From an uncultured Spirochaetales bacterium (GTDB taxonomy: Bacteria > UBP6 > UBA1177), in assembly GCA_902774115.1 (NCBI GenBank), contig CACYHH010000002.1:186001-250000 (forward strand): a DNA stretch of 64,000 nucleotides, read 5' to 3'. Position 1 is the first letter of the stretch. Every line of letters begins with the position of its first letter. The position numbers and the translations under genes are program-made. A model generated the notes under the pieces. It searched no databases. It was not told the origin of the DNA and saw only the letters and a list, made by a program, of their open reading frames with translations. Below are positions 54,219-63,971 of the stretch, piece by piece.

Positions 54219-57029
54219 TTAAGCCGCCGTCGCGTTGGCATTGACTTTGTCTATCACTTTGCGGATGCCGAGCCAGAGTGAAGTGTCGCTGAAGACTTCC
54301 ACGATGCTGCCGCGGTCGGTAAACGGTGCTTCCTGAAGGACTGAGAGGTCTTTCATCATGCCGTTGTGAACGATGTATTCCACGATCTGGTTGACGAAAT
54401 AGATCTGGCGGCTGTCAAGGCTGGTGTTGTTCAGAAATTCCGCGAAAGCCTCTTTTGCCGCGTTCATGTCGAGTCCGACGATTTCACGCACGAATTCGCC
54501 GAGCGGTTTTGCTTTATACAAAGCTTCGTAATCTTCCCTGGTTCCTGCTTCGCTCCAGAGTATCGCCTCAAGATCGGTCATATCTTTGCCTGTGAGAGGA
54601 AGATTGCTTTTGAGTTTGGCGATGACACCTTCGTTCTGGTGCTTGCGGACAAAGTATTCCGCCCGTTCGCGGTAAGTTGTGAGATAGGTGGTTTCGGCTT
54701 CTGCGACGCTCCATTTTGTCGAAAGCACTTCGTCGCTGAAATTCGTGTCGTATAGACTGTGCGAATAGTTGACATACGTCATCAGATTGCGCAGATTTGT
54801 GCGGATCTCCTCAAATTCCATGATTCCTGCGGTATCCAGATAATATGTGTGGAGGATTTTGTTTATCAGTTCTGACTGCATCATAATTGCGGGAATATTG
54901 GCGATATTTGCCACGGCATTCACCTTTTTCATGAGGTCGTTCCGTGCCGCGCCGTATTTGTTTCCTGCTAATAATGCGAGTTCGATTCCATAAAGAAGCG
55001 CGTCGAAACGCAGTGCTTTGACATCATCGATGTCGGGCTGGATAAGCGGCACGAGTTCGCGCTTCATGTTGAGTGTCTCTTCGTAGGTCAAAGCCTTGTA
55101 GTTTTCAGGGTCTGAATAGAGTTCGACATATTTCAGATGCTGTCTTACGGCGAAATTGCCGCGGTCGAGTTCGCGCACTTTTTTCACCATTTCATCAACC
55201 AGTTTTTTGCGGAAAGCGATGAGTTCAGGTGTCTGCCGGATGATCTCCTGAAGTTTGAAGGCGATCTGCGCTTTGAGAAGGAAAAGAGCCCCTTGCAGAG
55301 CCACAGTGTCGGCACTTGCCCGCCCTTTGTTCATGCGGAAAAACTCGAAGTTCCCGCAGAAATCGAAGATGTAGAACTTTGTTTTGTCAAATCCGTCGAT
55401 AAGTCCGGGACAAAGTCGTGTTCCGCGCCCTATCATCTGCCAGAATTTTGCTTTGCTGAGGACGACTTTGAAGAAAACCAGATTCAGCACTTCGGGAACA
55501 TCGATTCCGGTATCGAGCATATCGACTGAAATGGCTACCTGCGGCAGTTTTTTTGCGTCCGAGAACTCGTCGATCGCGCTCTGGGCATAGTTTATGGTGT
55601 TGTCGATCACTTTGGCATAGTTGTTCAGGTGGGGAAATTCTTTTCCGAAAACTTCGAGGATTTTTTCTGCGTGTCTGTGGTTTTTTGCAAAGATGATCGT
55701 TTTGCCGATTTTGCTGTTGTAGTCGATTTTAAGTCCGTCGTTCATCAGGATGCGCAGAACTTTGCGGATGGTGTCTTCGTTGAAGATCCAGTCGTTCAGT
55801 GCTGACGGGGTTATGCTTTCGGGGATTTCACCGCTTTCATCGGCAAAAGTCTTTTCGTATTCCTCTTTTTCTTCATCGCTCAGTTCGTCGTAAACTATTC
55901 CGCGCTGGATGAATTTGAGTGTTGTTTCGACTGAAAGAAAATCGACCAAGTAGCCGTCTTTTACTGCCTGCGCCAGCTCGTATCCGTAAGTCGGAACGCC
56001 GTTTTCAAGCTCGAAAACCTCGTAGGTGTTTTTGTCGATTTCGTCTTTCGGTGTCGCGGTGAGACCTACAAGCGGAGAATCGAAGTAGTTGAAAATTTCC
56101 TGATATTTGTTGTAGATCGAACGGTGTGCTTCGTCGCAGATCAGAAGGTCGAAGTGTCCGCAGGAAAAGACTCTTCCTTCTTTGTCGCGCACTGAATCGA
56201 TGCAGTTTATCATTGTCTGGTAAGTCGAAAAGACGCAGTGAGCTTCGATGTTGCATTTTTCTTCGCAGAGATTTGTGACAGAAAGATCGGGGAGAAGGTT
56301 CACAAAGCTGCGCTTCGCCTGGGTCACGAGGGAATTTCTGTCTGCGAGGAAGAGGACGTTTTTGATCCAGCCTTTATCCATCAGCACTTTTACGAGAGCG
56401 ATGACGGTTCTTGTTTTGCCGGAACCTGTCGCCATGACAAGGAGAGCCTTTCTGCGGTTTTTCTCTCCGAAACTGTCGCATACTGCTTTTATTGCAGCTT
56501 CCTGATAGTAACGTCCGGCGATATTTCTATCCACCATAATGTTTTTCAGGCTGCTGCGCATCCGCTGGAGATTGAACCACTTTTCAAGATCGCGTTTTGA
56601 ATAGATCCTTGCGACTTTCCGCTCAGGATACTGGTTGTCAACGATCCTTGTCTCGAAACCGTTTGAAAGAAAAACAACCGGGCGGAATCCCTGCTTCTTC
56701 TCAATCAGATCGGCGTAAAGTTTCGCCTGCTGTCTACCTTTCGACACGTCAGCGCAGGTGCGTTTCGCCTCGATTACGGCAAGGATGCGGCCGTCGTCAC
56801 CAAACAGCGCGTAGTCGGCAAAACCCACTTCCGACTTGTTCGGCATACCAGGGAGTTCGTATTCGTTGAGCCAGTTTTTTCCCTCTATCCAGCCGTCATC
56901 ACGCAACATCGTGTCGATGTATTTTTTGCGGGTCGCGTATTCGCTTGGCTCGCCATTAGGGAGAGCTGGCTGCGCAGCAGACTGAGAGGGGTTTGAAACA
57001 TCAAACTTTTTAACTTCTTCCGGCATCAT
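54219..57029 (-). CDS. hsdR: Type I restriction enzyme R subunit
   Basis: 936 residues. An N-terminal PD-(D/E)xK nuclease part has GFADYALFG and AVIEAKR (about 69-90). The helicase has ATGSGKTRT (about 200-208), ICDEAHRS, LTATPK, DMLDTGIDVPEV and MIGRGTRLCPGL. A C-terminal EcoEI-type domain ends the protein. It cuts unmodified DNA at a distance from the site after translocation. Residues 13-28 (NPSQSAAQPALPNGEP) are encoded by a palindromic repeat also seen at 60258-60302, so the element sits in the frame without breaking it. GAAGGA precedes the ATG. It is the last gene of the defence island. Confidence 0.95.
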   Translation of the reverse strand: MMPEEVKKFDVSNPSQSAAQPALPNGEPSEYATRKKYIDTMLRDDGWIEGKNWLNEYELPGMPNKSEVGFADYALFGDDGRILAVIEAKRTCADVSKGRQQAKLYADLIEKKQGFRPVVFLSNGFETRIVDNQYPERKVARIYSKRDLEKWFNLQRMRSSLKNIMVDRNIAGRYYQEAAIKAVCDSFGEKNRRKALLVMATGSGKTRTVIALVKVLMDKGWIKNVLFLADRNSLVTQAKRSFVNLLPDLSVTNLCEEKCNIEAHCVFSTYQTMINCIDSVRDKEGRVFSCGHFDLLICDEAHRSIYNKYQEIFNYFDSPLVGLTATPKDEIDKNTYEVFELENGVPTYGYELAQAVKDGYLVDFLSVETTLKFIQRGIVYDELSDEEKEEYEKTFADESGEIPESITPSALNDWIFNEDTIRKVLRILMNDGLKIDYNSKIGKTIIFAKNHRHAEKILEVFGKEFPHLNNYAKVIDNTINYAQSAIDEFSDAKKLPQVAISVDMLDTGIDVPEVLNLVFFKVVLSKAKFWQMIGRGTRLCPGLIDGFDKTKFYIFDFCGNFEFFRMNKGRASADTVALQGALFLLKAQIAFKLQEIIRQTPELIAFRKKLVDEMVKKVRELDRGNFAVRQHLKYVELYSDPENYKALTYEETLNMKRELVPLIQPDIDDVKALRFDALLYGIELALLAGNKYGAARNDLMKKVNAVANIANIPAIMMQSELINKILHTYYLDTAGIMEFEEIRTNLRNLMTYVNYSHSLYDTNFSDEVLSTKWSVAEAETTYLTTYRERAEYFVRKHQNEGVIAKLKSNLPLTGKDMTDLEAILWSEAGTREDYEALYKAKPLGEFVREIVGLDMNAAKEAFAEFLNNTSLDSRQIYFVNQIVEYIVHNGMMKDLSVLQEAPFTDRGSIVEVFSDTSLWLGIRKVIDKVNANATAA
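56947..56994. repeat. GGCTCGCC...GAGAGGGG palindromic element, inside hsdR
   Basis: It matches 60258-60302 with a few changes and a small length difference in the middle. It holds two short hairpins. Here it keeps the hsdR frame and codes for the low-complexity residues 13-28. Confidence 0.75.
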
Positions 57030-57064: not shown

Positions 57065-58642
57065 TCATTCTACAATTTCCCAATATCCACCTTTTTTCGG
57101 ACCAATATGCCGAATGATATTTTCATCACGAAGCTTTTTTAATTGCCATTCCAATCCTTTTTCTGTGATGAAAAGAACCTCCGCCATTTCAACTGCTGTT
57201 ATATATGGATTTTCCTTTATGAGATTTAATATTTTTACCCTAGTTTTTTCGTTTTCTACCCTAGTTTTTTCGTTTTCTACCCTAGTTTTTTCACTTTCTA
57301 CCCTAGTTTTTTCCTCGGAATCAGTTTCATCTGCTGTTTGGGTAGTTTGGGTAGTTTGGGTACTACCCATTTCATTCAAATACTCCGGCTGGATCGGAAT
57401 TGTCACGCAGACAGCCCGCCTGTCATCGTCAGTTTCAAAAATCGCTCTGGGCGATCCGTTTTTCTCAAGTTCTTCCTGAATAGTCGGAATGCCTGTGCAT
57501 CTGCCTTCAGTAAGGTCAAGCTCTTTTAAAAATTCGCCAAGCCTCCTGTTGCGGTACATTCTGGTTTTAAAGCGTTCGCCTTTTTCTATGACGCTGGCGG
57601 GAATAGATCTATCAATCCCCGGATAGCTGATAATTCGGATGCATTCGGGCTCGATTTCTATGTGAACAGGCTCGTAGCACATATAATCTCTGTGGTAAAA
57701 CGCATTGACAACAGCTTCTTCCAAAGCCTCGTAAGGATAGCTTTTAAAACGGTTGGCTTCCATTTTGTCCGGAACTTTCTGGACATATTCAGAAATAGCG
57801 ATGTCCTGCAATTTTTCCATGGTTCGGCGGATAATCTGCGGCACAGTTCCCTTGATCGGCGGAATTTCGATAAAATTTTTGGGATCTTTTATGCTTCCGT
57901 TCGGGAAACGGACGATTTCGACCTGCATATAAGGAAAAAATTTGTCGGGATGGTCGCAGAACATCATCAAAGCGACATTTTTAATGCGCTGCCTTTCGTG
58001 CGGTCCTTCGATAAGCTCCATCTGTTCAAGGATTTCCTTAACTCCGAGTTTTGCAACTTGTTTAGCGAGCTTGCTGCCGGTTTCCTTCAGATGTGCTTCC
58101 AGAAGAAGCGGTGAAATATCGTCAATCGTAGCTTTCGGATTTCCCTGCACGTCAAACGGCTCGTGAGCGCTCATTGCCAGCAGCTCTTTTTCCTGCTCCG
58201 GTGTCGCGACGATAGAACTTGTTCCGTATCTGACGAAATATTTGTAATTGTTGTCGTGCTTTGATGTGACATGCTCCACTGTCTTATACGGCCGCTGCAC
58301 GCCGGCAGGAACCCAGATTACGATAATATTTTTCCCGTCTACTTTTTCAGTTATCAGTTTGGCGAAATAGTTCGGCTGGATTTTCCGGTTAAAACCGACC
58401 ATTTCCTTTTGAATCTTATCGAGAGTGTCCAGCGGAATCCCAGAAACGGGACGGACGGCAACTCCGTTTTTTTCTTCAACACCAACAACAATGTATCCGC
58501 CGCCCAAATTGTCGAAATCGTTGGCAAAAGCACAGATAGATCTATAAATATCGTTAGGATTCCATCCTTTTTTGAACTCTATTCTGTCGGATTCGATATT
58601 GTTTTTATTCAGCAGATCTTTGATGTTGAATTCTAAATCCAT
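57065..58642 (-). CDS. AlbA_2/Schlafen-like ATP-binding protein with heptad repeats
   Basis: 525 residues. The N-terminal AlbA_2 domain (SDRIEFKKGWNPNDIYRSICAFANDFDNLGGGYIVVGVEE) is followed by a HATPase-like part (EALEEAVVNAFYHRDY...RIISYPG), then a Thr/Gln run, an EKTRVEN heptad repeated about four times (from 57237), and a winged helix (TAVEMAEVLFITEKGLEWQLKKLRDENIIRHIGPKKGGYWEI in parts). Such proteins are transcription regulators or defence factors. It lies 35 bases upstream of hsdR and is similar in layout to the next gene. Confidence 0.83.
   Translation of the reverse strand: MDLEFNIKDLLNKNNIESDRIEFKKGWNPNDIYRSICAFANDFDNLGGGYIVVGVEEKNGVAVRPVSGIPLDTLDKIQKEMVGFNRKIQPNYFAKLITEKVDGKNIIVIWVPAGVQRPYKTVEHVTSKHDNNYKYFVRYGTSSIVATPEQEKELLAMSAHEPFDVQGNPKATIDDISPLLLEAHLKETGSKLAKQVAKLGVKEILEQMELIEGPHERQRIKNVALMMFCDHPDKFFPYMQVEIVRFPNGSIKDPKNFIEIPPIKGTVPQIIRRTMEKLQDIAISEYVQKVPDKMEANRFKSYPYEALEEAVVNAFYHRDYMCYEPVHIEIEPECIRIISYPGIDRSIPASVIEKGERFKTRMYRNRRLGEFLKELDLTEGRCTGIPTIQEELEKNGSPRAIFETDDDRRAVCVTIPIQPEYLNEMGSTQTTQTTQTADETDSEEKTRVESEKTRVENEKTRVENEKTRVKILNLIKENPYITAVEMAEVLFITEKGLEWQLKKLRDENIIRHIGPKKGGYWEIVE
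57237..57314 (-). repeat. 21-base tandem repeat in the AlbA_2 gene
   Basis: Units of 21 bases start at 57237, 57258, 57279 and 57300 (the last partial). They code for EKTRVEN-type heptads. Copy changes would keep the frame and alter the linker length. Confidence 0.85.
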
Positions 58643-58709
58643 CTGTTTTTCTCCTCCAACAATTTTTATGTTTTCTCCGCATTTACCTTCTCGTCTTCCA
58701 TTTCAAAGT

Positions 58710-60014
58710 CTACTTTACCTTCCAAACACCGTCCCTTTTTGAGCCAATTCTTTCAATCATTCCGTATTCCTGAAGTTTCGCGCAGATTTTCTTGACACCT
58801 GCAAGACTTAATCCTGTTTTGTCGGCTACATCCTGAAGAGAATCCGCAGGATTTTCCAACAGATATTCATAAATTTTCTTCTGATTTACGGTTAAATTGT
58901 TCTGTTTGAAAATACGATTTTTTCGTTCAACGACTTCTATCCGTTCAAAGGACAGCGGAATAGTCACTTTTATCATTCCGTCATCGAACGAAAATATATT
59001 TCTGCCGTATTTTTCAACGATTGTCGGAACTCCGTGTCCGCTTTGCTCTGCATATTTTGATACAATGAAAATTGTCAGAAGGCTTTTGTTTACAGGCACG
59101 CTTGTTCCATTGAAAAAACCTTCAAGTGAAAGGGAAAAAGGCAATCCGCCGTAAGAAACGATCTCTATTCTGTCATCAAACAAATATACCGACGGAGCAA
59201 TACCGCTATTCCAGTCATTATGAAGACATGCATTGATCCATGCTTCCTTGAAACTCGGGAAATCAAACAAAAACTCTTCGTTACGTTTAGAACCGGTCAC
59301 ATCTACATTTGTGATATTGATGGAGTTGAAATATTCCAAGACTTCCGACATAGACCAAAGCAGGCATTTTTTCCCATACTCAGTTCTTCTTGACATGACA
59401 CTTTTGCTGTTTCCTTCAAAAGTGACAACTTTTATTGAGATATCATTGTTATCCGACATGAGATAAGCGTTCATGTTATACTTGCCGTCACGATTCAGCA
59501 TTCCATAGTTTCCGTAAAACTCTTCCGAGTCTTTCGGATGAATACCCAGACCGGAAAGGATTGCGAAAAAAGATTGGAAAGTTAAATCCTGAACAGGAGA
59601 AGGTTTTTGCCTTATAAGATCAGCATCGGAATTGGAAAGCATTTTTCTGAGGATTTCATTAGATGCCTGCTCGTCAGCTGCAACATTTCTCAAAAAATAT
59701 CTGCCGTCAAAAGAATACGGGATATCCGAGCCTTTAGCAGATACTTTGATATATTTTTTTCCGGTTTCATCGCTTTCTTCCTTGATATCGGCATATATAC
59801 GGGGTTCTATTTTGTCTCTGATTCGGTTGCGGATATCCATGAGAGTATTTTTGCCGATTTCAAGCCCGCAGATATCACCGTTGTCGGTCACACCAAAATA
59901 AACAACGGCCTCTCCGTGCCTGTTTAGCATGGATGTTAAAGATCTCAATCCTTTATCCAGCTGGCTCAAACTCTCTTTGAATTCTTGAAATTCGTTTTCT
60001 TTGCCTAAATTCAT
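58710..60014 (-). CDS. AlbA_2-type ATP-binding protein with winged helix
   Basis: 434 residues from the ATG at 60014, with GGGAGG 6 bases upstream; the frame to 60029 is rejected. EFQEFKESLSQLDKGLRSLTSMLNRHGEAVVYFGVTDNG is a clear AlbA_2 start. A HATPase-like region (SFKEAWINACLHNDW...RIEIVSYGG) and a C-terminal winged helix (SLQDVADKTGLSLAGVKKI) follow. The protein is a cousin of the neighbour at 57065-58642. The stop codon lies in a 12-base unit that is repeated 13 times upstream of the gene (60047-60195). The role inside the type I locus is unknown. Confidence 0.82.
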   Translation of the reverse strand: MNLGKENEFQEFKESLSQLDKGLRSLTSMLNRHGEAVVYFGVTDNGDICGLEIGKNTLMDIRNRIRDKIEPRIYADIKEESDETGKKYIKVSAKGSDIPYSFDGRYFLRNVAADEQASNEILRKMLSNSDADLIRQKPSPVQDLTFQSFFAILSGLGIHPKDSEEFYGNYGMLNRDGKYNMNAYLMSDNNDISIKVVTFEGNSKSVMSRRTEYGKKCLLWSMSEVLEYFNSINITNVDVTGSKRNEEFLFDFPSFKEAWINACLHNDWNSGIAPSVYLFDDRIEIVSYGGLPFSLSLEGFFNGTSVPVNKSLLTIFIVSKYAEQSGHGVPTIVEKYGRNIFSFDDGMIKVTIPLSFERIEVVERKNRIFKQNNLTVNQKKIYEYLLENPADSLQDVADKTGLSLAGVKKICAKLQEYGMIERIGSKRDGVWKVK

Positions 60015-60046
60015 ATTTTTGCCTCCCAAGAACCATCCATCAAACC

Positions 60047-60195
60047 AAAGTCTACTTCAAAGTCTACTCAAAGTCTACTTCAAAGTCTACTCAAAGTCTA
60101 CTTCAAAGTCTACTCAAAGTCTACTCAAAGTCTACTCAAAGTCTACTCAAAGTCTACTTCAAAGTCTACTTCAAAGTCTACTCAAAGTCTACTTT
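60047..60195. repeat. Thirteen tandem units of AAAGTCTACT(T)C
   Basis: Units alternate between 11 and 12 bases without a strict order. They lie between the AbiH gene and the AlbA_2 gene. A single unit (58705-58716) covers the stop codon of that AlbA_2 gene. The array ends at 60195; 60196-60327 hold only the palindromic element and no gene. Confidence 0.9.
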
Positions 60196-60257: not shown

Positions 60258-60302
60258 GGCTCGCCCTTAGGGAGAGCTGTCGCAAAGCGACTGAGAGGGG
60301 TT
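60258..60302. repeat. GGCTCGCC...GAGAGGGG palindromic element, intergenic
   Basis: It contains a perfect GTCGC / GCGAC hairpin with an AAA loop and outer arms around CCCTTAGGG. It lies directly downstream of the AbiH gene. The sequence matches the element inside hsdR at 56947-56994. Confidence 0.75.
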
Positions 60303-60327
60303 GGTAGTAGTTTTGTTTTCAGGGGAA

Positions 60328-61389
60328 TTAACGATAATCAACTGTAGCCCTCCCAATAGGATTTTGATCAATATTTACAATGTTGGACAAATCGAATTTG
60401 GTATATCCTACAGGTATATGTATTTGAGCAGATAAACTTGTTAATTTGTTGTTATCAACTCCTTTATTTTTAAACAATATCTTAAGTAGTTCTTCATTTT
60501 TAGCATCTGCGATATCCTCTCTTTCAGTAACATCTGTTTCAGAAGCACTTTTTGCTACTAAATTATGATTGAAAAACACCAAATGATGTTTGGGATTATC
60601 TAATAGCCACTCTGCTACAGCCTGTCTCCAAGTCAAATCTGATTCACCAAGAGACAAACCAAATGCACAGATTACATTACTTGATTTAATGTAAGACAAA
60701 GCCTGCTCTTTCCTTTTACGGCAAAAACCTTCGAGCCATGTCGGCTTTATTGTTGTGCGTCTAAAACTACGATTAAGTCCATATGGCAACTTACAGAATT
60801 GAGATTCATTATCAATTCCCAATACAATATCCGCATTATTGTTTAAATCTCCATGTATATGCACCACGTCTTTATCAACGTAGTATTTGTATTTATCTTC
60901 TATAAATTCGAACGCAGACTTTTCTAGTGTATCAAACACGTCTGTATAATTAAAACTAATAAATTGCAGGATTCTTTCTGCTCCATCACTCAATTCCGAA
61001 GAAATAGCATCTTGATCATTTGGTCTTATATCTTTATAAAAATACAAAAGCAGATAGATCATTTTTTGTATTGAATCTCCGCTGTTCGGGTTAAAAGAAT
61101 TGTGAAATTTCGCCTGTTCTTTCTTTAAATAATCAATTAAATAAACTTTGTAATCACGAATACATGTAACTAAATCTTCTCCTTTTTCAAAATTTTTAGC
61201 ATATTCGGCAATTTTCATTTCAAAATCTGCCCAGGTATCAATATTTTTCTCAATATTTTTTTTAAATTTCTTGATTACATCAGACGGAGAAACGCTGTTT
61301 ATATAGCCATTATACGTGTCTTTATATTTGCTCTTCAACCCACACGCCAGATCAAAACCGTTGCCAATCAAAAAAGTTACAACCGACAT
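60328..61389 (-). CDS. AbiH family abortive-infection protein
   Basis: 353 residues, AT-rich. It starts TFLIGNGFDLACGLKSKYKDTY, the AbiH signature and a SIR2-like nucleotide loop. FISFNYTDVFD, VVHIHGDLNN and VICAFGLSLGESDLTWR complete the SIR2/AbiH pattern. AbiH stops phage growth in Lactococcus by an unknown route. The start follows the TIR gene stop by 2 bases, so they are co-translated. Its SIR2-like layout is shared with the protein at 22880-23869. Confidence 0.87.
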   Translation of the reverse strand: MSVVTFLIGNGFDLACGLKSKYKDTYNGYINSVSPSDVIKKFKKNIEKNIDTWADFEMKIAEYAKNFEKGEDLVTCIRDYKVYLIDYLKKEQAKFHNSFNPNSGDSIQKMIYLLLYFYKDIRPNDQDAISSELSDGAERILQFISFNYTDVFDTLEKSAFEFIEDKYKYYVDKDVVHIHGDLNNNADIVLGIDNESQFCKLPYGLNRSFRRTTIKPTWLEGFCRKRKEQALSYIKSSNVICAFGLSLGESDLTWRQAVAEWLLDNPKHHLVFFNHNLVAKSASETDVTEREDIADAKNEELLKILFKNKGVDNNKLTSLSAQIHIPVGYTKFDLSNIVNIDQNPIGRATVDYR

Positions 61390-61391
61390 TT

Positions 61392-62771
61392 TTATCTCCC
61401 TTTTAATTTATTCATATCTATCGTGTAACCCATGCCATCAAGTTCTTTTAGCACTTCAAATTCTAATGATGTTGAATCAGTATAGACAATACCTTGCATA
61501 TCTGAAGGAAGTTCGACACCGCGATCAGCAATAGTTATCACATGATCACGCCCCAATTTACCCATAAAAAATCCTGCTTCAAACACTACATTTTGCCGAG
61601 CACGGTCTTTTTCTTGTTCTTCTGTTTTTGCTTTTCCAATGTCATCTGCTGTGAATAGGCAAATGGCAGCTCCGACATCACTGTTTTGTTCAAATTTTTC
61701 AATAATAGTTGCGCCTTTATTCGGTTGTTCATGCAAAATAATTGCTTCAATGCCCTGTTTTTCTACTAAACGGGCAACCATTTGCTTTAATTCTCCATTA
61801 TGCCCGTGAACAATAAAAACTTTTTTTCTGTCCTTTGTTTCTTTTCCCATGCTTATTTCTCCTTTTTCTTTAGGGATATTTATTGCTAATTCCGTAGTTT
61901 CTCCTTTCATGTCATCCAAGTATGCTGATAATTCGGTTCGAGTTATTTCCAAACCACGCTTGCAAGAATCAATATAATCTTGTGCTGAAGTATGCGGAAG
62001 ACTTGGTGCAAAACTCCGCCCGATAAAATTCTTATATTGCTTGCTTTGTGTGCCGTATTTTTCTGACAAAAATAATCCGAGTTCTTTATGCCAGTTTTTG
62101 AATTCAGGCAATGAATATGTCATCTGTTTATCAATCAACTCATCTATTTCGTCGCGTAATTTCCTTAATTTCTCATATGGTGTCATGTTGTTCTCCTGCG
62201 TTGTTCCTATTTCTTCCATTTGTGATAATTTTGTCTGATACTCAGCAAGTTTTGAGGTTATTAACTGATGTAAAATAGCATACTGATTTTCAGCCTTTGT
62301 TTTGTCTGAAAGTATTGATAGTTTTTGTAGGTTAATCTTCTGTTCTCTTTGATAAGAATCAATGGAACTTAGTCCCTCTGGAACTTTTAATTCGGCAATT
62401 CTCTCATCACATTGCTTAAAAAACTTTTCAAGTTTTTGTGCTGGCCATATTTTTATTGGGTCCATCTGAGTATTGTCGCGGGTTACAGTTCTCATTGTCA
62501 AATATTTTTCCATTGCCATTTGTGCAATTTCTTGAGCAACTTCTTTTGTTATTCCGGCTGAACACATCATTTTTTTAGCATTTTGATAATATAACTGATT
62601 GACTTCATTATTTGTGTCCAACGGCGTTCCCCAGAAATAAAGCAAACAAAAACCGACAAGGTCTTTACACTCTAATGCTATTGGATACAACTGCGGCAAA
62701 ATGACAGATAATTTGTCACTATTCTCAGACAATTGCTTGAAAAGCCCTTCAATTTTATCAATGCTATTCAT
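61392..62771 (-). CDS. TIR-like effector protein (Pycsar/CAP12-type TIR)
   Basis: 459 residues. The first 300 residues are helical and unrecognised. The C-terminal 144 residues from about 316 are a TIR-like nucleotide-binding domain: KKVFIVHGHNGELKQMVARLV, AAICLFTADD and VVFEAGFFMGKLGRDHV with a candidate catalytic Glu398. Such TIR domains cleave NAD+ when a signal molecule or partner activates them. No cyclase gene is seen in the window. It sits directly behind hsdS (15 bases) and before the AbiH gene, in the same direction. Confidence 0.8.
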   Translation of the reverse strand: MNSIDKIEGLFKQLSENSDKLSVILPQLYPIALECKDLVGFCLLYFWGTPLDTNNEVNQLYYQNAKKMMCSAGITKEVAQEIAQMAMEKYLTMRTVTRDNTQMDPIKIWPAQKLEKFFKQCDERIAELKVPEGLSSIDSYQREQKINLQKLSILSDKTKAENQYAILHQLITSKLAEYQTKLSQMEEIGTTQENNMTPYEKLRKLRDEIDELIDKQMTYSLPEFKNWHKELGLFLSEKYGTQSKQYKNFIGRSFAPSLPHTSAQDYIDSCKRGLEITRTELSAYLDDMKGETTELAINIPKEKGEISMGKETKDRKKVFIVHGHNGELKQMVARLVEKQGIEAIILHEQPNKGATIIEKFEQNSDVGAAICLFTADDIGKAKTEEQEKDRARQNVVFEAGFFMGKLGRDHVITIADRGVELPSDMQGIVYTDSTSLEFEVLKELDGMGYTIDMNKLKGR

Positions 62772-62786: not shown

Positions 62787-63971
62787 TTACCCAAAATATT
62801 CCTGCATCAAACTATCAAACAAAAGCTGTGTTTTTTCAAGGGATTTCTGTATTGCCAATTTTGATTTGTCGGTCTGAGCAACGAAATCTGAGAACTCTTT
62901 TTGCAACGAAACATTAGGCAACATAACAGGTATTTGCTCAACCTTATTCAAAAATAAATGACCGATAGCTGAAGCATGTACATTTGCATTCATAATTTGC
63001 TGAATGCTCTCTTGTCTTAATAGCCATGCAATATAATGGGGATTTATTTTTGTTCTATCCAATTTAAGAAGTGTAATCCCTCTATCCATAGTAAACGGCT
63101 TACTATTTATTGGAACAATCGCAACATTGCCAATAGTTCCTGTAGTAGTAATAAGAACATCATTACCCTCAGGATTACATCGCTTGTAAATACGCTTATG
63201 AATTTCATCAGAGGTATATGTCACTGCGTTCCAATCAATTTCTCCAGAAGATTTTATATGTTTAGCATTAAGAAACGGATGTCCGTGTTCAACTTTTGCA
63301 ACACTTCCATGTTCTCCATCTGTTATCTTTGTGCAGACAGATTTCATATTCTCGTAATCCCACCCTTTCGGATTTTTAACCGGATCCCCAAACATCTCCA
63401 CAAACCTTGCTTTAACGAGCTCATCGAGCGCGGAAAGCTGCGCTTTTCGCTTTTCTATAATGTCTGAAATCTTGTCCAAACGATAACATACGCTGATTTG
63501 TTTTTCATAATTTGCATCAGCGACTTCATATCGCTCAATGTAATCATCAATTTTCAAATTATGAAGACCTGTGGTTTTATTCTCAAAAGCCCTTGTACCA
63601 CCTTTCCTGTAATTTGCGTAAAGGGAATAAAACACATATCTAGGGAACCATTCTTTTTGGTTTTTAATTCTCAGCAAACCAGTGAAATTATTAAACAAAT
63701 ATTTGTTCTCAGGACCGTCATAATAAATAACTCTCCCAACAGGCTGCTTGTCGCTGCCACCTGATTTTTCAATAATAATATCACCAGTACGAAGGAATTT
63801 TTCTTCGATATTTTTTCTAGTAATAGTTCTTGTTACTACATTATCAAAATTCACAATACCTTCATTTGTAAAATTTGTAGTGCGGAGAACTGGAATTCCG
63901 TTGCCGTTTTCATCATCAGTTCCCCATTCCCCAGACAAGGCTTTGCCAGTAATATTAAATAATTTCGTCAT
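62787..63971 (-). CDS. hsdS: Type I restriction specificity subunit
   Basis: 394 residues with two target-recognition parts. The first is IPVLRTTNFTNEGIVNFDNV...GDIIIEKSGGSDKQPVGR, followed by a helical spacer (ISDIIEKRKAQLSALDELVKARFVEMFGDPVKNPKGW). The second is KITDGEHGSVAKVEHGHPFLNAKHI...DVLITTTGTIGNVAIV, ending in a second helical spacer. It sets the DNA site for the type I enzyme. The start overlaps the stop of the previous gene as ATGA. It is AT-rich like the TIR and AbiH genes. Confidence 0.92.
   Translation of the reverse strand: MTKLFNITGKALSGEWGTDDENGNGIPVLRTTNFTNEGIVNFDNVVTRTITRKNIEEKFLRTGDIIIEKSGGSDKQPVGRVIYYDGPENKYLFNNFTGLLRIKNQKEWFPRYVFYSLYANYRKGGTRAFENKTTGLHNLKIDDYIERYEVADANYEKQISVCYRLDKISDIIEKRKAQLSALDELVKARFVEMFGDPVKNPKGWDYENMKSVCTKITDGEHGSVAKVEHGHPFLNAKHIKSSGEIDWNAVTYTSDEIHKRIYKRCNPEGNDVLITTTGTIGNVAIVPINSKPFTMDRGITLLKLDRTKINPHYIAWLLRQESIQQIMNANVHASAIGHLFLNKVEQIPVMLPNVSLQKEFSDFVAQTDKSKLAIQKSLEKTQLLFDSLMQEYFG

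Follow-up and report, generated by a model that had tools for sequence, protein, structure and literature searches.

We found that a gene encoding a SLFN_AlbA_2, a HATPase_c_4 and a winged-helix domain carries the same short DNA unit at both of its ends, once across its stop codon and in thirteen tandem copies upstream of its start. Comparison with orthologues and more distant relatives suggests that this unit is probably the sequence bound by the winged helix at the C terminus of the gene's own product, and that the array would be an autoregulatory operator/promoter that has been expanded here.

The array, its gene and the orthologues

The array lies on the minus strand at positions 60046 to 60195 of the window, by which we mean the whole stretch of 64,000 nucleotides analysed, and was delimited using TRF and by inspection of the sequence. 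It consists of thirteen AAAGTCTACT(T)C units, which read GA(A)GTAGACTTT in the direction of the gene and start at 60047, 60059, 60070, 60082, 60093, 60105, 60116, 60127, 60138, 60149, 60161, 60173 and 60184, with unit-to-unit distances of 11 or 12 bp (in order 12, 11, 12, 11, 12, 11, 11, 11, 11, 12, 12 and 11). TRF gives one solution of period 11 (60046-60193, 13.0 copies) and one of period 23 (60046-60194, 6.5 copies). The 10-bp core AAAGTCTACT is without any change in all thirteen units, the sole variation being one extra T. The array sets in about 30 bp upstream of the ATG of the minus-strand AlbA_2 gene, and a further single unit on the same strand, AAAGTCTACTTT at 58705-58716, spans the TAG stop of this gene (58710-58712); read with the gene it is AAAGTAGACTTT, a near-palindrome of the form AAAGT-AG-ACTTT.

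Next we examined whether this arrangement could be fortuitous. By first-order Markov simulation, the exact 12-mer unit would turn up on either strand of the neighbouring 1.4 kb with a probability of 0.00045, and AAAGTCTACTTC has 8 matches at one mismatch or fewer in the window versus 0.33 expected. A chance origin of the array and the stop-codon unit is thereby excluded, and the TRF solutions, the coordinates and the simulation confirm the thirteen-unit array and the unit over the stop codon that the first-pass annotation had described. We also searched for the unit elsewhere, as that annotation had proposed, and found that it is not common genome-wide. The 2.5 Mb genome contains AAAGTCTACTTT in exact form at three sites, the stop codon, the last array unit and C6:179221, and tandem copies are found in this array only. 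Allowing up to one mismatch, AAAGTCTACTTT has 30 matches genome-wide, array included, versus 82 for the same letters read backwards; the unit is therefore not over-represented elsewhere in the genome, and we rejected the idea that it is a genome-wide repeat.

The gene (58710-60014, minus strand; 434 aa) starts at an ATG at 60014, immediately preceded by a Shine-Dalgarno-like GGGAGG. Its protein matches the profiles PF04326 SLFN_AlbA_2 (E = 2.1e-14), HATPase_c_4 (E = 3.3e-11) and HTH_24 (E = 5.9e-7), and the order SLFN_AlbA_2, HATPase_c_4, winged helix is present in this gene and in the six relatives examined, with the HTH matches of L184 and L051 falling under the curated cut-off. The winged-helix part was placed at about residues 374-431 (58722-58895, minus strand) from the HTH_24 match and a structure model with a mean pLDDT of about 70-84 over most of the winged helix and low values elsewhere (whole-model mean 39.9), in which residues 404-416 form the predicted recognition helix. 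We take the family to be COG2865-like.

The surroundings are those of a defence island, with all of the following genes on the minus strand. A type I restriction HsdR-like gene (54219-57029) and a second, different AlbA_2-HATPase-winged-helix gene identified by its domain matches (57065-58642) lie on the 3′ side, the stop-codon unit sitting 62 bp upstream of the start of the latter. Upstream of the array come an AbiH-like gene (60328-61389), which is the first gene there, a CAP12/PCTIR TIR-domain gene (61392-62771) and a type I specificity, HsdS-like gene (62787-63971). The six neighbouring genes scanned included neither a recombinase or integrase gene nor a ParM/ParR- or TubZ/TubR-like partition gene. 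Two in-gene arrays unlike each other are present in the second AlbA_2 gene, at 57232-57313 (21 bp x 4) and 57336-57362 (9 bp x 3), and both contain GGGTAG in one orientation or the other. The island also holds two copies of a REP-like hairpin element, CTCGCC.TTAGGGAGAGCTG...GACTGAGAGGGG; the copy at 60258-60306 lies between the AbiH-like gene and the array, and the copy at 56943-57000 is read in frame as NPSQSAAQPALPNGEPSE within the N-terminal part of the HsdR-like gene. The strict form of the pattern, which fits the HsdR copy only, has no further match in the genome.

Orthologues of the focal gene, with 66-86% protein identity, were found in a second species of the same genus as well as in Lachnospiraceae, at loci with neighbourhoods unrelated to each other. 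The unit is present upstream of the start in all six orthologues that cover this region (L050-L053, L182 and L183, degenerate in L183), and over or after the stop in five of the eight orthologues (L050, L051, L052, L054 and L055), the 3′ unit being missing from L053, L182 and L183. The closest orthologue, L050, comes from the congener G009, a yak-rumen genome; its protein is 86% identical to that of the window, and two units precede its start, a third spans its stop and a fourth lies 35 bp further on. L051-L054 (74-75% identity) are from Lachnospiraceae-type assemblies, L054 being labelled 'proteobacterium', L055 is a 3′ gene remnant from Eubacterium ruminantium (68%), and L182 and L183 are 66-67% identical to the window gene. 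As 28 genomes were available for the phylum of the window while Lachnospiraceae alone gave 397, we infer that the hosts span at least two phyla. Furthermore, the exact units in the host genomes are located at the gene for L051 (2 of 2), L053 (2 of 2) and L054 (1 of 1), and for L052 three of four are, counting a half split by a contig end, with one elsewhere; the four exact matches in the L055 host all fall in an unrelated 66-bp repeat. Collectively, the flanking of the gene by the unit, which the first-pass annotation rightly noted in the window, recurs in orthologues elsewhere and is a conserved feature of this gene.

Promoter-like arrangement of the units

Next we examined the position of the units relative to the start codon. 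A TAGACT-N16/17-TA(G/T)ACT arrangement formed by units or near-units is present in all seven genes, window included, and in the orthologues the two units that make up these -35/-10-like elements are 22-23 bp apart. TAGACT fits the -35 and the -10 consensus at four of six positions each, and the last unit reads TATACT, nearer the -10 consensus, in three of the seven genes (L050, L182 and L183). The gene-proximal pair ends 31-34 bp upstream of the ATG in five of the seven, at 22 bp in L183 and at 56 bp in L182; these two have an additional pair each, with N17 and N18, respectively. In the window, the putative gene-proximal promoter pair, TAGACT-N17-TAGACT (60049-60077, minus strand), is formed by units i and i+2 and occupies the position of the equivalent pair in most orthologues. 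Each unit of the array pairs in the same manner with the next but one, which gives 11 pairs with spacers of N16 to N18, the last ending 34 bp upstream of the ATG, and the orthologues have two to four GTA(G/T)ACT cores upstream of the start. The site is thus kept at the gene's own promoter, over the predicted promoter elements, in seven genes. From this geometry we infer that the unit would be an operator overlying both the -35 and the -10 element, and the two would be multiplied by the array. The array looks like a slippage-expanded autoregulatory promoter, because its 11/12-bp spacing repeats the 22-23 bp geometry of the orthologues.

We hypothesize that the gene's own winged helix binds AAAGTAGACTTT, and that two units 22-23 bp apart would supply TAGACT-N16/17-TA(G/T)ACT as -35 and -10. 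Because the units overlap the predicted promoter, protein bound to them would block transcription of its own gene. The unit or units at the 3′ end may be auxiliary operators, serving in looping or as a second boundary as in lac and gal. Under this hypothesis, the promoter copy would have slipped to thirteen units on a roughly helical repeat of 11-12 bp in this strain, and this expansion would multiply operator and promoter elements alike, probably shifting the set point.

Arrays and winged helices across the family

The genus, family and order to which the window genome belongs supplied relatives, as did Lachnospiraceae, with one genome available per species; searches at the class and phylum level added few further genomes, the group being small. 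This gave 81 unique family genes in an initial round and 127 in a second, of which 114, in 48 clusters, were usable, that is with a recognisable start motif, adequate length and adequate upstream DNA, the start codon being chosen automatically and at times wrongly (for example in L131 and L188). In-gene arrays of period 9-15 are present in 79 of these 114 genes, spread over 36 of the 48 clusters, but in only 4 of the 171 control ORFs, which are unrelated ORFs from the same stretches, and upstream arrays in 19 of 114 (7 clusters) versus 5 of 171. The best in-gene period among the 84 genes with an array is 12 in 67, 11 in 7 and 21-54 in 10. Most in-gene arrays lie in the linker preceding the winged helix, and those of period 12 read as four-residue repeats. 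Promoter arrays of about 4-5 units, with other sequences, are found in L184-L187, L193 and L037, and by eye in L220 and L221.

Fourteen plasmid regions from other phyla were fetched and 11 read, L204, L206 and L213 having no annotated or intact gene; an in-gene array of 11-12 bp is present in 7 of the 11 plasmid genes, and an upstream array of this period in one (L205). L191 and L199, with a wrong or partial reading frame, were dropped from the reading by eye. A search of phages gave six distant matches, each below 60% identity, and no relative of the family was found on viral contigs. On an IncC plasmid of Escherichia coli (LC744502.1), L200 is a shorter family member that by eye has neither winged helix nor repeats; it lies in a type I restriction operon, directly ahead of HsdS and two genes before an annotated anticodon nuclease. 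The flanks of L032, L107 and L150, next to intact family genes, contain short pieces that by eye look like the N-terminal beginnings of other AlbA_2 genes, TLEFKRELPQN being one example, suggesting gene turnover at these loci.

We next examined whether the in-gene arrays are constrained as DNA or as peptide. In the NV(G/Q/T) repeats, valine is encoded by GTC in 40 of 41 codons versus 22% elsewhere in the same 11 genes (7 clusters), and the 11-bp arrays of L044, L045, L070 and L083 cross two or three reading frames with one DNA word. With frozen codons and frame-changing 11-bp arrays, selection at the peptide level as the sole cause of the in-gene arrays is disfavoured. The word of the 12-bp arrays mostly holds one frame from gene to gene, which leaves room for an additional peptide role of these arrays.

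Furthermore, several lineages have the same word at the promoter and in the gene body. In L018 and L029, ATGTCGGT units lie upstream of a promoter-like pair, TTGA(C/T)T-N16-TATTCT, once inside it, and in the linker as well, and the word is at the promoter and linker alike in L194-L196, Lachnospiraceae relatives of these two; a search for more genes of the ATGTCGGT type gave six matches, none of them new. L037/L064 (TGACAAGATAAA), L197/L198 (GTTGGGAATAAA, in both orientations upstream) and L083/L107 (AACGGCGATAAA) likewise share a word between promoter and gene, and L205, from Mycoplasmopsis, has AGTGACAT in the promoter and its reverse complement ATGTCACT in the linker. In L193 an array is found at the promoter but not in the linker. 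Sharing is clear by eye in L018, L029, L194-L198, L037, L064, L083/L107 and L205. Matches of score 13 or more between a gene and its own upstream region were found for 26 of 114 genes versus 1.6% of swapped pairs, and on the reversed strand for 3 of 114 versus 1.1%; in the initial set, a shared stretch of at least 13 was found in 17 of 81 genes in forward orientation versus 27 of 957 swapped pairs, and in 1 of 81 reversed, with the reading that tests of the longest shared stretch also catch long end copies that are perhaps gene remnants (L032, L137, L150). The in-gene unit matches the gene's own 150-bp upstream region at p <= 0.05 in 11 of 78 genes (6 of 35 clusters), versus 3.9 expected. Several genes with in-gene units overlap or abut an upstream operon gene. 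Sharing between promoter and gene is thus real in several lineages and not general, since 11 of 78 genes pass and only L205 of the 11 plasmid genes has an upstream array. The L134-L136 clade combines promoter repeats with a matching word straight after the stop, and a gene bracketed by its own promoter word is found in at least three lineages. In this clade, L135 carries one and the same 57-bp stretch, itself holding several TGTGAAGT-like repeats, ahead of its start and straight after its stop, and CTTCAC immediately follows the stop in L134 and L136.

We then compared units with winged helices. Units are similar in all 17 between-cluster pairs with a winged-helix identity above 60%, in 66% of the 32 pairs at 50-60%, in 31% of the 255 at 40-50% and in 3-7% below 40% (overall Spearman 0.23), a correlation that is partly plain co-inheritance, because the in-gene array adjoins the winged helix. 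Promoter units are an independent case, since they lie more than 1 kb from the winged helix. L184-L187 and L188/L190 share 61-63% of their N-terminal part versus 25-36% of the winged helix, and their promoter units are AGTAGCAAATAA and TTGAATAAAGTG, respectively (L190 by eye). Judged from these alignments, the promoter unit appears to change when the DNA-binding domain changes, in a few lineages. The winged helices of the focal orthologues share 50-78% identity with that of the window gene and 43-44% between the most distant pairs, and the GVKKI of the predicted recognition helix and the unit are both conserved in all seven focal genes. A last search gave five matches with three new genes, L220, L221 and L222, which were read by eye with no prediction made beforehand, and all three have promoter arrays. 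L220 and L221 combine an SD(G/S)YIRK helix, resembling that of L184-L187, with AGT(A/G)GC(A/G)AATAA-like arrays, and L222 combines a new helix with a new word found on both sides of the gene, the copies ahead of the start and past the stop agreeing over 24 bp. When L202 (Aliarcobacter) is compared with L210 (Arcobacter) in blocks of 60 bp, identity is 90-100% and the 3′ ends are near-identical; the exception is about 240 bp containing the linker array and the winged helix, where identity is 57-67%. This block has the appearance of a natural specificity swap, in which array and winged helix were exchanged together.

Alternative readings and known systems

Could the array simply be neutral, a 14-bp promoter motif that slippage turned into a VNTR of 13 copies without any effect in itself? 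The identical cores in all units are what recent slippage predicts, and the orthologues hold just two to four cores; however, promoter arrays of other sequence recur in the relatives listed above, and upstream arrays are commoner in the family than in the controls, so that we consider a neutral array unlikely. A neutral copy number and a functional unit are nevertheless compatible with each other. The first-pass annotation had also proposed a lost gene duplicate, from whose 3′ end the array would have grown. A unit is indeed located at the 3′ end of the gene, and in L097 some 36 bp from around the 3′ end of a gene recur upstream, with the look of a tandem copy; yet the array edge and the 3′ end of the window gene agree over 14 bp only (AAAGTAGACTTTGA), and the orthologues, in unrelated places, bear both copies, which makes this origin hardly credible.

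The same annotation's other suggestion was that the units are recombination sites, at which genes or a block of array and winged helix would be exchanged within the island. Some hints point in this direction: the similarity of L053 to its orthologues ends right after AAAGTAG, longer copies (57 and 24 bp) lie at both ends of L135 and L222, respectively, and L202 and L210 differ by the block described above. However, the six genes scanned include no recombinase, the 5′ boundary is not at a unit, because L051 and L052 are identical for 141 bp upstream of the start, beyond every unit, and exchange leaves the promoter geometry and the codon freezing unexplained. An operator fits better than a recombination site, given that the units lie on predicted promoter elements and co-vary with the winged helix, and we regard recombination sites as very unlikely. 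A role of the unit in the mRNA, where the Schlafen-like RNase domain would recognise or cut its own message, would suit the SLFN_AlbA_2 domain of the protein and the mostly identical orientation of promoter and in-gene copies, but the L018/L029 units are upstream of or within the predicted promoter and, if that promoter is right, mostly untranscribed. Furthermore, the L205 units are inverted between promoter and gene and those of L197/L198 occur upstream in both orientations, which favours DNA rather than RNA as the level of action; a site in the message is highly improbable.

Starting again from the unit as a probable operator of the gene's own winged helix, we propose, far more tentatively, that bacterial Schlafen-type regulators use a self-addressed DNA code, with an exchangeable winged helix and its cognate word, and stay silent until infection; we consider this possible but doubtful. 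The exchangeable block would be the winged helix together with its cognate 11-12-bp word, which would be set in helical register on the protein's own gene, at the promoter, the stop codon or in the gene body, and tetrapeptide repeats such as NVGL, EKWP and KSSQ would be translated operator arrays. The protein may assemble along the array, which would hold an RNase-type effector silent on its own gene, and release may follow when infection disturbs the array DNA or titrates the protein away. If this were true, the DNA specificity of a large and mostly unstudied group of defence-island proteins would become readable, the word being taken from the gene, and the odd four-residue repeats of ever-changing sequence in these proteins would be accounted for. 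It would also tie these proteins to autoregulation, like other dangerous defence genes, and would provide a natural catalogue that pairs winged-helix recognition helices with their sites.

According to PMC12839542, proteins composed of a Schlafen RNase, a minimal histidine kinase and a winged helix are backup effectors associated with BREX/BR loci, in no fewer than 1017 taxa; it also refers to a preprint about the bacterial Schlafens in defence against phages. The domain order and the defence-island setting given there are like those of the window gene; the terms 'tandem repeat' and 'autoregul' are absent from the main text of that paper, and the repeats and self-matching sites are an addition of the present work. 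PMC7641849 and PMC10561277 mention COG2865 or AlbA_2, with nothing on repeats in these genes in the passages concerned. Our literature search, with most subscription papers and all preprints outside its scope, showed no report of such repeats among the papers listed, and self-matching words that go with the winged helix, and that often appear in the protein as linker repeats, seem to be undescribed in the searchable literature. The only solved chain matched at E <= 0.01 is PDB 3LMM (residues 164-305, E = 0.0016), an uncharacterised protein of Corynebacterium diphtheriae; this match brought no DNA complex or repeat information, and a literature search on 3LMM gave nothing relevant by title.

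Among known systems, parC of plasmid R1 and tubC are short direct promoter repeats bound by the DNA-binding protein of their own operon. The array resembles them in its direct repeats of 11-12 bp, set in helical register close to the promoter, but no ParM/ParR- or TubZ/TubR-like gene is among the six genes scanned here, and we rejected a plasmid partition system on this ground. The lac and gal operons have a primary operator at the promoter and an auxiliary operator inside or beyond, and here as well the sites are at the promoter plus inside the gene or at its end; in contrast to lac and gal, the regulator would mark its own gene, with arrays of 11-12 bp and with in-gene sites that are translated as peptide repeats. 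Phase-variable simple repeats also occur in promoters and resemble a tandem array located between a gene start and the upstream gene, whereas the unit described here is gene-specific, conserved across phyla and part of promoter-like elements.
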